Source of the DNA: Owenia fusiformis
Lineage: Eukaryota > Annelida > Polychaeta > Sabellida > Oweniidae
DNA length: 64,000 nt
Assembly: GCA_903813345.2 (NCBI GenBank)
Contig: CAIIXF020000010.1
Location: 23,293,740 to 23,357,739 of the forward strand
Direction of reading: 5' to 3'
Made by a program: the position numbers and the translations under genes. A model generated the notes under the pieces. That model made no database searches, was not told the origin of the DNA, and saw only the letters and a list, made by a program, of their open reading frames with translations. Of this stretch, positions 13,790-62,884 are shown in pieces (positions within the stretch are counted from its first letter, which is position 1; every line of letters starts with the position of its first letter).

Positions 13790-14283
13790 GTGCCACCGGA
13801 CTAACTGGATTTCAAGGAAATAATGGACCAACAGGATCAACTGGACTTCTAGGAAGCACAGGGCCAACAGGAGCAACTGGACTTATAGGAAGCACAGGGC
13901 CAACAGGAGCAACTGGATTTCTAGGGAGCACAGGGCCAACAGGAGCAACTGGATTTCTAGGGAGCACAGGGCCAACAGGAGCAACTGGACTAACTGGAGC
14001 GACAGGGTCACAAGGGGCAACAGGACCAAAAGGGGCTCAAGGACAAGTGGGTGCAACTGGACCATCTGGGATAAGTGGTGCAACAGGAACAAGTGGTGCA
14101 ACTGGACAAACTGGTGCTTTGGGGCCAACTGGTGCCACGGGTTCTCCAGGTGATATAGGCGCAACGGGGCTTATAGGTTCTACAGGACCAACTGGAGCAA
14201 CAGGACTAATCGGTACCACAGGCCCAACAGGTGCTACTGGTATATCTGGTGCCACTGGACCAAGTGGTGCTACAGGACAAACT
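13790..14283 (+). repeat. Heterogeneous N-terminal collagen segment of giant exon
   Basis: About 165 residues with varied triplets. Four 36-bp (12-residue) repeats of the type [12 protein letters not shown] lie near 13842-13985. They are followed by [12 protein letters not shown] and a [16 protein letters not shown] stretch. The 12-residue period matches the intron island and resembles exon 2, so this segment probably preserves an older version of the repeat. It contains one of the few Lys residues in the exon (GPK near 14026). Confidence 0.75.
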
Positions 14284-17200
14284 GGTGCGACAGGATCTAC
14301 TGGAGCAACAGGCTCTACAGGATCCACAGGTGCAACTGGTGCCACAGGATCTACTGGAGCAACGGGATCAACAGGCGCAACTGGTGCAACAGGCCCTACA
14401 GGAGCGACTGGTGCAACAGGGTCTACAGGAGCAACAGGTGCCACAGGATCTACAGGGGCAACTGGTTCAACAGGATCTACAGGAGCGACTGGTGCAACAG
14501 GCTCCACGGGAGCAACTGGTGCAACAGGATCAACGGGTGCAACTGGAGCAACAGGATCTACAGGGGCAACTGGTTCAACAGGACCTACAGGAGCGACTGG
14601 TGCAACAGGCTCCACGGGAGCAACTGGTGCAACAGGATCAACGGGTGCAACTGGAGCAACAGGATCTACAGGTGCAACTGGTGCCACAGGATCTACAGGG
14701 GCAACTGGTGCAACAGGGTCTACAGGAGCCACTGGTGCAACAGGCTCTACTGGTGCCACAGGATCTACAGGGGCAACAGGGTCTACAGGAGCAACTGGTG
14801 CAACGGGCTCGACGGGCGCGATAGGTGCCACGGGATCAACTGGTGCAACGGGATCCACAGGTGCAACTGGAGCCACAGGATCTACTGGAGCTACTGGGGC
14901 GACAGGCTCTACAGGGGCAACTGGTGCAACAGGCTCCACGGGAGCAACTGGTGCCACAGGATCTACTGGGGCGACAGGCTATACTGGTGCAACTGGTGCA
15001 ACAGGCTCCACGGGAGCAACTGGTGCAACAGGATCAACTGGCGCAAAAGGATCTACAGGTGCAACTGGTGCCACAGGATCCTCAGGGGCAACTGGAGCAA
15101 CAGGGTCCACAGGAGCGACTGGTGCCACAGGCTCTACAGGAGCGACTGGTGCAACAGGTTCTACTGGTGCCACAGGATCGACAGGGGCAACTGGTGCAAC
15201 AGGGTCTACGGGTGCAACTGGAGCAACAGGATCTATAGGTGCAACTGGTGCCACAGGATCTACAGGGGCAACTGGTGCAACAGGGTCCACAGGAGCGACT
15301 GGTGCAACAGGCTCTACTGGTGCCACAGGAGCAACTGGTTCAACAGGATCTACAGGAGCGACTGGTGCAACGGGCTCGACGGGCGCGTCAGGTGCCACGG
15401 GATCTTCTGGTGCAACAGGCTCTACTGGTGCCACAGGATCTACAGGGGCAACAGGAGCGACTGGTGCAACGGGCTCGACGGGCGCAACAGGTGCCACAGG
15501 ATCTACTGGTGCAACAGGATCCACAGGTGCAACTGGTGCCACAGGATCTACTGGAGCTACTGGGGCGACGGGCTCTACAGGGGCAACTGGTGCAACAGGA
15601 TCCACGGGAGCAACTGGTGCCACAGGATCAACGGGCGCAACTGGAGCAACAGGATCTACAGGTGCAACTGGTGCCACAGGATCTACTGGGGCGACAGGCT
15701 CTACTGGTGCAACTGGTACCACAGGATCTACAGGGGCAACTGGTTCCACAGGATCTACAGGAGCGACTGGTGCAACAGGCTCTACTGGTGCCATAGGATC
15801 TACAGGGGCAACTGGTGCCACAGGAGCTACTGGGGCGACAGGTTCTACAGGGGCAACAGGTGCAACAGGCTCCACGGGAGCAACTGGTGCCACCGGATCA
15901 ACAGGCGCAACTGGATCGACAGGATCTATAGGTGCAACAGGCTCCACGGGGGCAACTGGTGCAACAGGATCAACGGGTGCAACTGGTGCCACCGGATCTA
16001 CTGGAGCTACTGGGGCGACAGGCTCTACAGGGGCAACAGGTGCAACAGGCTCCACGGGAGCAACTGGTGCCACAGGGGCAACAGGCGCCACTGGATCGAC
16101 AGGTGCAACTGGTGCAACAGGCTCCACGGGAGCAACTGGTGCCACAGGATCTACAGGGGCAACTGGTGCCACCGGATCTACTGGAGCTACTGGGACGACA
16201 GGCTCTACAGGTGCAACAGGCTCCACGGGAGCAACTGGTGCCACAGGATCAACAGGCGCAACTGGATCGACAGGCTCAACAGGTGCAACTGGTGCAACAG
16301 GCTCAACGGGAGCAACTGGTGCAACAGGATCAACGGGTGCTACTGGAGCAACAGGATCTACAGGTGCAACTGGTGCCACGGGATCTACAGGGGCAACTGG
16401 TGCAACAGGGTCTACAGGAGCGACTGGTGCCCCAGGATCAACGGGCGCAACAGGATCTACAGGTGCAACTGGTGCCACAGGATCTACTGGGGCGACGGGC
16501 TCTACTGGTGCAACTGGTGCCACAGGATCTACAGGGGCAACTGGTTCAACAGGATCTACAGGAGCGACTGGTGCAACAGGCTCTACTGGTGCCACAGGAT
16601 CTACAGGGGCAACTGGTGCCACGGGATCTACTGGAGCTATTGGGGCGACAGGCTCTACAGGGGCAACAGGTGCAACAGGCTCCACGGGAGCAACTGGTGC
16701 CACAGGATCAACAGGCGCAACTGGATCGACAGGATCTACAGGTGCAACAGGCTCCACGGGAGCAACTGGTGCAACAGGATCAACGGGTGCAACTGGAGCA
16801 ACAGGATCTACAGGGGCAACTGGTGCGACAGGGTCAACAGGGGCGACTGGTGCAACAGGCTCTACTGGTGCCACAGGATCTACAGGGGCAACAGGATCTA
16901 CAGGAGCGACTGGTGCAACGGGCTCGACGGGCGCGACAGGTGCCACGGGATCTACTGGTGCAACAGGCTCTACTGGTGCCACAGGATCTACAGGGGCAAC
17001 AGGAGCGACTGGTGCAACGGGCTCGACGGGCGCTACAGGTGCCACAGGATCTACTGGTGCAACAGGATCTACAGGTGCAACTGGTGCCACAGGATCTACT
17101 GGAGCTACTGGGGCGACAGGCTCTACAGGGGAAAATGGTGCAACAGGATCCACGGGAGCAACTGGTGCAACAGGATCTACGGGCGCAACTGGAGCAACAG

Positions 17201-62200: not shown

Positions 62201-62884
62201 GGGCCACTGGTGCCATGGGGTCTACAGGGTCCACTGGTGCCACAGGTTCTACAGGGGCCACTGGCGCCACAGGCTCTACAGGGGCCACTGGTCCAACTGG
62301 TAGTACAGGGGCAAATGGTGCTACTGGTCCAACTGGTAGCACAGGGCCAACTGGCGCTACTGGTCTAATTGGTAGTACAGGACCAACTGGTGCTATTGGT
62401 CCCACTGGCACTACAGGGCCAACTGGTGCTACTGGTCCAACTGGTAGTACAGGATCAACAGGTGCTACTGGTCCCACTGGTACTACAGGGCCAACAGGCA
62501 CTACTGGTCCTACAGGTAGTACAGGACCAACTGGCGCTACTGGTCCCAGTGGTTCCACTGGACTTCTTGGATCTACGGGACCAACAGGTGCTACTGGTAT
62601 ATTTGGAGCAACTGGCATAACTGGTGCCACAGGTCCCACAGGATCTACAGGGGCCACTGGTGTGACAGGATCTACAGGTGCTGCTGGTGCGACCGGACCT
62701 ACAGGAGTAACTGGTGCCACAGGTTCTATGGGCGCCACTGGTGCCACAGGATCTACAGGAGCAACTGGTGCAACTGGCACCACAGGTCCATCTGGAAGTA
62801 CTGGACCAAGTGGTGCAACGGGCTTGATTGGTTCAACTGGACCTACTGGTGCAACTGGTACTACTGGGGCTACTGGTCCTACAG
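13790..62884 (+). CDS. Giant 49-kb exon of a Gly-X-Thr collagen-like protein
   Basis: A single open exon of 49,095 bp (16,365 codons), phase 1 at both borders: acceptor TTTCAACTTCAG|GT, donor CCTACAG|GTGAGA. I see Gly at every third residue throughout, about 5,455 triplets with Ala or Ser in X and Thr in Y. Pro is confined to the start, two cassettes and the tail. Cys is absent and charged residues are rare, mainly Asp or Glu in X. The chain mass would be about 1.3 MDa (my estimate). Gly-X-Y repeats are established triple-helix formers. In vestimentiferan worm cuticle collagen, glycosylated Thr in Y replaces hydroxyproline as stabiliser, and the same logic would fit here. The likely role, inferred, is a secreted extracellular or cuticular structural fibre. 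Lack of any stop or frameshift over 49 kb argues that it is expressed and constrained. The gene continues past the window. Confidence 0.85.
21990..24130 (+). repeat. Segmental duplication within array A, 1,422-bp offset
   Basis: The rare variant GDT (GGCGATACTGG) occurs at 22054 and again at 23476, inside long identical surroundings that continue downstream. The offset, 1,422 bp, is 158 triplets, so frame and Gly register are kept. The duplicated copies are interrupted by other repeat variants between about 22720 and 23400. Confidence 0.65.
36700..39200 (+). repeat. Duplication within array A, 1,863-bp offset
   Basis: The rare GAV triplet (GGAGCAGTAGGATCTACAGG) at about 36822 recurs at about 38685. 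The following several hundred bases, including a GYT triplet (GGGATATACTGG), match almost base for base. The offset, 1,863 bp, equals 69 of the 27-bp units. Together with the 1,989-bp duplication just downstream, it shows recent expansion in this part of the array. Confidence 0.7.
39692..43669 (+). repeat. Near-perfect 1,989-bp tandem duplication in array A
   Basis: Two adjacent copies with an offset of 1,989 bp (221 triplets). Marker variants coincide exactly: GVT (GGTGTAACTGG) at about 40871 and 42860, and GGT (CTACTGGGGG) at 41621 and 43610. I saw only isolated single-base differences, for example ACT versus ACA near 41271 and 43260. Beyond about 41680 and 43670 the copies part. The duplication is very young, or else an assembly or haplotype artefact. 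Confidence 0.75.
46045..46449 (+). repeat. Cassette 1: Pro-containing spacer between arrays
   Basis: 45 triplets with Pro in X (GPS, GPT, GPN), Gln in X or Y, Arg (GLR) and hydrophobic X or Y residues (GAF, GIT, GLT, GQI). It includes a [13 protein letters not shown] phrase. A second copy lies at 61570-61875 with only a handful of amino-acid differences in the shared part. Being less repetitive, it may serve as a register or recognition block in the helix (inference). Confidence 0.8.
46450..61569 (+). repeat. Array [10 protein letters not shown] collagen repeat, 15.1 kb
   Basis: 1,680 triplets of the same nine-residue logic as array A but with a different codon fingerprint (GGCTCTACGGGTGCAACTGG, GGAGCGACAGGTGCCACAGG). 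It also has a regular variant, GDT (GGTGACACAGG). GDT triplets are often spaced exactly 216 or 324 bp apart (8 or 12 units), for example 49108 to 49324 and 56974 to 57190 to 57514. The spacing defines a higher-order repeat. The difference in fingerprint shows that the two arrays have been homogenised separately. Confidence 0.85.
61570..61875 (+). repeat. Cassette 2: second copy of Pro-containing spacer
   Basis: 34 triplets aligned to the carboxy-terminal part of cassette 1, from [16 protein letters not shown] to GQIGPTGP. The initial GLR and GPN part is missing. It ends with GPP, a rare Pro in Y. Its presence after array B, just as cassette 1 follows array A, implies duplication of a whole array-plus-cassette unit. 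Confidence 0.8.
61876..62884 (+). repeat. C-terminal mixed collagen segment of giant exon
   Basis: It begins with GST, GAT, GAS and GAM triplets and then shifts to GPT, GTT, GLI, GLL, GIF and GPS triplets. Thr still fills most Y positions, and the Gly register is unbroken to the donor. The composition is like exon 2 and the start of the giant exon, so the long GAT/GST arrays are flanked on both sides by the more varied, Pro-containing type. That fits expansion from the middle of an ordinary-size collagen domain. Confidence 0.75.

Follow-up and report, generated by a model that had tools for sequence, protein, structure and literature searches.

Annelid cuticle collagens are micrometre-long molecules located in the cuticle that carry threonine (Thr) in the Y position of their Gly-X-Y triplets, with galactose on that Thr, and in Riftia, a worm of hydrothermal vents, sugars on the Thr of the cuticle collagen serve as a stabiliser. 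Transmembrane mucins such as MUC4 and MUC16 combine a giant Thr/Ser-rich repeat exon, built on a Pro-Thr-Ser repeat, with an EGF or SEA stalk, a transmembrane helix and a tail. Alvinella collagens of up to 8,859 amino acids (APscaff0012.353), with similar lengths in the transcriptomes of relatives, are described in a section on giant annelid collagens whose authors call misassembly hard to rule out (PMC12403961). The MACIT collagens (XIII, XXIII and XXV; COL-99 of C. elegans) are presented in PMC4678570 as type II membrane proteins with an interrupted helix and a conserved extracellular C-terminal motif. In the spider gene AgSp1, 42,270 bp of coding sequence lie in two 'similarly sized' exons, hence ~21 kb each (PMC6553539). 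Here we describe a 49-kb collagen-coding block in a stretch of 64,000 nucleotides of the annelid Owenia fusiformis (assembly GCA_903813345.2, contig CAIIXF020000010.1, positions 23,293,740 to 23,357,739 of the forward strand; hereafter the window), which, judged from the DNA, is probably translated as a single exon of a very large gene whose product is a collagen anchored in the membrane, a reading that we favour with moderate confidence.

An earlier note on this DNA had claimed a single exon of 49,095 bp that begins and ends in phase 1, has no stop or frameshift and consists almost wholly of one triplet theme. This claim holds in the sequence. The block lies within the longest open frame of the window (13744-62937, 16,397 codons), reads ACTTCAG/GTGC at its start (13790) and CAG/GTGAGA at its end (62884), and keeps Gly in 5,455 of 5,455 triplets. 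Its parts are as follows.

13790-62884, plus strand: giant exon, 49,095 bp, 5,455 unbroken Gly-X-Y triplets, Thr in 97.5% of Y, phase 1-1, no stop or frameshift
13781-13789, plus strand: acceptor (3' splice site) preceding the giant exon, CAACTTCAG
62885-62890, plus strand: donor (5' splice site) of the giant exon, GTGAGA following CAG and scoring 10.7 bits with a consensus matrix
13790-46400, boundary approximate, plus strand: 5' block, Thr codons ACA > ACT, AT skew ~0.25 (composition and binned codon usage)
46401-62884, boundary approximate, plus strand: 3' block, ACT > ACA in 5-kb bins, AT skew mostly ~0.14

Thr fills Y in 5,319 of the 5,455 triplets and X is Ala in 3,250 and Ser in 2,005, with GAT or GST making up 5,161 triplets; GPT occurs 46 times, and Pro takes ~1% of X and <1% of Y. 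The genomic frame shows 5,457 triplets because two extra ones (GEM-GEM) run into the downstream intron. Tandem Repeats Finder reports a single array of period 27 at 14290-62774, and two Ala plus one Ser are present in ~76% of the windows of three successive X residues, a pattern that agrees with the 27-bp unit. Joined to the preceding exon (exon A, below), the unbroken run reaches 5,467 triplets, equal to 4.69 um at the collagen triple-helix rise of 0.286 nm per residue. Composition and Thr codon choice shift near 46-48 kb, which suggests that the giant exon consists of two blocks of different descent. Codon use is uneven in other respects as well: within 13789-62901, ACC accounts for only 76 of 5,346 Thr codons and ACG for 634, while GGT stands before Ala 1,701 times and before Ser only 131 times. 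The scarcity of ACC and the GGT-Ala bias may be due to a founder effect, CpG decay or selection.

Translation of the frame was assessed by comparing duplicated stretches within the giant exon, using 19 non-overlapping segments of at least 94% identity (1,633 triplets). Single-base differences were synonymous and non-synonymous in numbers of 196 and 0 at Gly, 120 and 45 at X, and 158 and 27 at Y; the non-synonymous changes thus amount to 0 at ~3,312 sites for Gly versus 27 at ~3,323 sites for the Thr position, with an overall ratio of non-synonymous to synonymous differences per site (pN/pS) of 0.075. The identity threshold of 0.94 was of our choosing, with the order of positions unchanged at 0.97 and 0.90, and the ratios exclude codons differing in more than one base, of which X had 80, Y had 9 and Gly had none. 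The same order was seen in a 17.5-kb exon of a related locus (relative B, below), with 56 and 0 at Gly, 53 and 27 at X, and 54 and 9 at Y (6 segments, 441 triplets). Given 196 synonymous against 0 non-synonymous differences at Gly, chance origin of the giant frame is excluded. An order of Gly far below Y, and Y below X, is what would be predicted for a translated triple helix with a functional Thr, and the long Gly-X-Y run and strict Gly constraint of a collagen triple-helix domain are both found here.

The duplicates also bear on whether the array was inflated during assembly and is much shorter in the animal. Long tandem arrays are prone to misassembly, and repeated 100-mers cover 46% of the array positions. 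However, the register never breaks, no exact repeat exceeds 1,632 bp, repeated 1,000-mers cover only 2.6% of positions, and duplicates differ mainly by synonymous changes, so that we regard such an artefact as very improbable. With a longest exact repeat of this size long reads should span and resolve the array and, there being no N in the window and no frameshift in the exon, the assembly of the 49-kb array is plausible.

According to the earlier note, an exon of this size poses a real problem for exon definition by the spliceosome. We scored donors with a consensus matrix and acceptor-like sites with a pyrimidine rule, and compared the counts with 20 Markov sequences and with uniform synonymous shuffling; the latter control presumes that codons are used uniformly, and part of the donor shortage may come from founder effects. 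The best internal donor reached 7.4 bits, compared with 10.7 bits for the exon's own donor. No internal donor scored 8 bits or more, versus means of 46.2 in the Markov controls and 2.35 after synonymous shuffling, and 4 scored 7 bits or more, versus 84.4 and 54.6. GTAAG, GTGAG, GTATG and GTAAA do not occur within the giant exon. Internal acceptor-like sites numbered 0 against 14.5 in the Markov controls and 0.0 after synonymous shuffling, indicating that the protein sequence alone accounts for the lack of acceptors. Read in reverse complement, the exon has no donors but 318 acceptor-like sites. The near-absence of internal donors and acceptors means that the repeat theme leaves few decoys on the coding strand. 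The exon-definition problem is thereby eased, and with one frame, phase 1-1 edges, position-specific selection and no strong internal splice sites the single-exon reading is supported at the level of sequence.

The gene around the giant exon was modelled from the following features, with coordinates continued beyond the window on both sides.

6238-6696, plus strand: collagen exon A, upstream of the giant exon and in phase with it (phase 1-1), bounded by TTGATTCAG/GGAC and CAG/GTAACA
66382-66507, plus strand, beyond the window: EGF exon 1 (Pfam EGF_CA E=3.1e-8; FXa_inhibition 3.2e-12)
67424-67531, plus strand, beyond the window: EGF exon 2 (Pfam EGF_CA E=1.3e-6)
67909-68606, plus strand, beyond the window: terminal exon with transmembrane helix, basic stretch and a tail ending PRTPF
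-1970 to -1722, plus strand: candidate pro-domain exon, weakly supported, with good splice sites in phase 1 and with a dibasic site
-8742 to -8616, plus strand: candidate first exon with a hydrophobic stretch after basic residues, weakly supported

Exon A opens with a short non-collagen start (GTAEIVEND...LNIE), followed by G-X-T-rich collagen (Pfam Collagen E=3.9e-19) with one break (GIT-P-GTT). Together the seven exons give 50,862 nt encoding 16,953 amino acids (1,353 kDa), with all six junctions in phase 1 and a single, terminal stop; Thr and Ser make up 44% of the model protein and Pro 0.5%. The five predicted exons from exon A onward are well supported, while we are unsure of the 5' end of the gene and the 5' part of the joined model is provisional. 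Between exons and beyond 68.6 kb the domain scan covered selected frames. In the three downstream exon frames no COLFI propeptide of fibrillar collagens was found, two of them matching EGF families; a SEA domain gave no match in the same three frames, small exons outside the scan being possible. For the frame with the transmembrane helix and tail the only Pfam match was LapA_dom, whose 17.6 bits fall short of its cut-off of 28.

Two further pieces upstream of the giant exon were considered as exons and rejected. A block around -6790 has a donor that is in phase 2 by eye, and the other is a decayed copy:

8465-8848, plus strand: decayed intronic collagen copy that looks, by eye, like the giant exon's 5' part; glycines have been lost and no splice site is apparent

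That the unspliced frame meets a stop 53 bp past the giant-exon donor raises the alternative of two genes, a collagen gene with the giant exon as its last and a separate downstream gene with the exons for EGF domains, membrane helix and tail. However, the junctions are in phase 1 with good donors, and the order collagen, EGF, tail recurs at 5/5 other loci sharing the tail, leaving this division only a slim chance.

These loci were found by searching the 498-Mb genome with the tail exon; genome searches score the best candidates, and the family counts are lower bounds. At least 5 other loci were recovered (6 non-self rows, two of them from one locus), with best E per locus from 1.6e-15 to 2.4e-4:

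C4:6520690, relative B
C10:12331153, relative A2
C4:2872304, relative D
C10:26434882, relative C
C10:12308767, relative A1

At all five the tail lies on the same strand as G-X-Y frames, 1.3 to ~30 kb downstream of them, with EGF frames adjoining; the stretches from collagen to tail of B and D were only partly covered in this comparison. With the tail of B as query these loci were found again, together with weaker matches at C12:4627613 (E=0.0027) and C10:15253767 (E=0.33), each of which lies 3-8 kb downstream of same-strand collagen-like frames among those listed for the genome. Six of six aligned tails show a 19-residue hydrophobic peak (2.39-2.88), with 4-6 Lys or Arg among the next 15 residues and 0-2 ahead of it. 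LEPN is invariant in all six, while the longer motif LEPNFLCDxxSER is complete in three (the giant-exon gene, B and A1), has one change in A2 and an altered end in D, and is lost past LEPN in C. Collagen compositions, obtained from parts of the loci after dropping runs with Trp or with less than 5% Thr, range from mixed X and Y (C, with Thr in 20-35% of Y) to near-pure Ala/Ser-Thr (the giant-exon gene and B). The preferred Ser codon is TCT in the giant exon and TCA in the B exon, a difference that suggests separate expansion of the two. In relative A2 an 8.7-kb frame (C10:12315130-12323808) shows recurring non-collagen breaks such as NTVNINYY, and in relative C a mucin-like repeat rich in N, T, S and P directly precedes the collagen exons (C10:26413436-26414029). 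The hydrophobic first exons proposed for B and D, picked by eye, resemble each other, with 0/1,000 shuffles reaching their score.

The predicted topology of the encoded protein places the collagen outside the cell, the C-terminal helix in the membrane and a tail of ~170 residues, with LEPNFLCDxxSER, inside; the two EGF domains would form a stalk. Three such chains could wind into a triple helix with as many as 5,467 triplets, ~4.7 um long. Because Pro is so scarce, stability of this helix would need sugars on Thr, and such sugars, predicted on the Thr at the end of almost all triplets, may act as its stabiliser. The likeliest role would be that of a long glycosylated surface filament, a bristle of the glycocalyx or cuticle, working like a transmembrane mucin with the collagen rod as its repeat. 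The exon itself probably expanded as 9-bp and 27-bp units, and longer stretches, were duplicated in register. A bolder proposal, which we put forward only tentatively, is that the locus represents a new class of surface protein, a collagen-mucin, in which one exon, the longest coding exon of an animal known to us, encodes a 4.7-um triple-helical, Thr-glycosylated rod with an anchor of EGF domains, membrane helix and tail, within a gene family of this lineage; the repeat theme would also keep decoy splice sites out of the exon and let its 49 kb be spliced cleanly.

The likeness to transmembrane mucins lies in the Thr/Ser-rich giant repeat exon followed by EGF, membrane helix and tail, whereas the Owenia repeat is strict Gly-X-Thr collagen with little Pro. 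Having no Pro-Thr-Ser repeat, and no SEA match in the three frames scanned, the protein does not class as a mucin. One may therefore ask if the product is itself a mucin, an unfolded and densely O-glycosylated polymer instead of a triple helix, as its Thr and Ser content, its exon order and the mucin-like repeat of relative C would allow. A plain mucin backbone needs no fixed Gly, however, and the absence of any Gly replacement at the sites compared above counts against this possibility, which we consider quite improbable.

Like the MACIT collagens of PMC4678570, the encoded collagen would sit in the plasma membrane, and dibasic sites near the N-terminus are also shared (in Owenia a candidate only). 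By contrast, the membrane helix that is secure here lies at the C-terminal end and is followed by a tail; there is a single break, in exon A, before one run of 5,467 unbroken triplets, and the model ends with two EGF domains, membrane helix and tail, without the extracellular C-terminal cysteine motif of MACITs, as judged by architecture alone.

With respect to cuticle collagens, the length of 5,467 triplets and the 97.5% Thr in Y of the giant exon are those expected of the group, annelid members of which are micrometres long and rich in glycosylated Thr. The protein could accordingly be a secreted or shed cuticle collagen, its transmembrane end being a biosynthetic anchor that is cut off to let the rod join the cuticle. 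The published annelid collagens of up to 8,859 residues are in keeping with this, as are the dibasic KR-D or RR-D sites in the proposed N-terminal exons of the giant-exon gene and two relatives. On the other hand, Pro fills 33-40% of X and 22-33% of Y in the five longest annelid collagens in the table of PMC12403961, against ~1% and <1% here, and the retention of LEPN and of basic residues after the helix in 6/6 tails suggests a function for the tail; we judge shedding unlikely, though worth keeping in mind. The giant annelid collagens of that section (Alvinella APscaff0012.353 and relatives, and Eisenia) resemble the Owenia protein as very long Gly-X-Y proteins of annelids, whereas the Owenia model is nearly twice as long, has Thr in almost every Y and carries exons for EGF domains, membrane helix and tail downstream; exon structure and membrane anchors lie outside the section in question (section 12 of PMC12403961).

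Several observations weigh against a membrane-anchored collagen translated from this exon. The low Pro content (0.5%) puts triple-helix stability in question, and the other giant annelid collagens in the section cited, being Pro-rich, are not close compositional matches. The lack of donors is in part not strand-specific, since the reverse complement has none either, and the pyrimidine tract of the giant exon's own 3' splice site is only modest. One match of the B tail query (C10:4017054, minus strand, E=0.70) has no nearby collagen frame among the frames listed. At the 5' end, the candidate first exon (-8742) is no closer to those proposed for B and D than shuffles are (460 and 426 of 1,000 reach the score), so that it is a candidate only and the total of 16,953 amino acids is provisional. 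The proposed first exon of B as a genome query (E<=10) found only itself among the matches listed, a comparison of the non-collagen start of exon A with DNA from two related loci gave nothing better than E 13, and the upstream candidate frames had no Pfam domain at the cut-off.

As far as our literature search reached, the size, the near-pure Gly-X-Thr composition and the family with EGF domains, membrane helix and tail are new. Among the matches listed from the open-licence literature, none described a coding exon longer than this one or a collagen with EGF domains that is anchored at its C-terminus; for transmembrane collagens with EGF domains or in annelids the MACIT paper alone was relevant among the matches listed, and no exon sizes for PKZILLA were found among those listed. 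The earlier note had set the longest well-known coding exons, in titin and mucin genes, at around 17-22 kb, which is about right, the longest published exons that we found being the two of AgSp1. AgSp1 likewise encodes a repetitive structural protein in very long coding exons, but its repeats are those of a secreted silk, and the single Owenia exon is more than twice the size of either AgSp1 exon (PMC6553539). If transcribed as read, the Owenia exon would be more than twice the largest coding exon found in print and would encode the longest uninterrupted collagen rod known to us. It would offer a natural test of the upper exon size that the spliceosome accepts, and of the reasons for it, decoy sites being nearly absent. 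In a collagen nearly without Pro, replacement of Pro by Thr sugars as stabiliser of the triple helix becomes testable at an extreme scale. The family suggests that membrane-anchored surface filaments of annelids evolved by a route parallel to that of mucins.

On the opposite strand of the giant exon, an open frame at 14979-46415 (minus strand, 10,478 codons) was considered as a gene and rejected. When codons were permuted with protein and usage kept, the longest minus-strand open frames averaged 7,223 codons and 10,478 was reached in 1/50, and the frame is largely a by-product of the repeat. An Rfam search of the window gave no match. In the genome, PF16915, a linker domain of annelid erythrocruorins, has at least 3 matches, one of them with an internal stop, in keeping with annelid DNA; 14 control genomes, bacterial where named, gave none and say little on this point. 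Remains resembling non-LTR retrotransposons are seen at 11476-12099 (plus strand; a zf-RVT-like match, E=7.8e-4, below the cut-off) and upstream at -25577 to -22770 (minus strand; a 936-codon frame, reverse transcriptase-like by eye). Copies of a short motif like GCCATTTTGAAAATGGC at 63001-64000 are, by eye only, probably an interspersed repeat, and further downstream a frame at window coordinates 97188-97565 (plus strand) shows a match like GH35 beta-galactosidase (E=1.3e-12).

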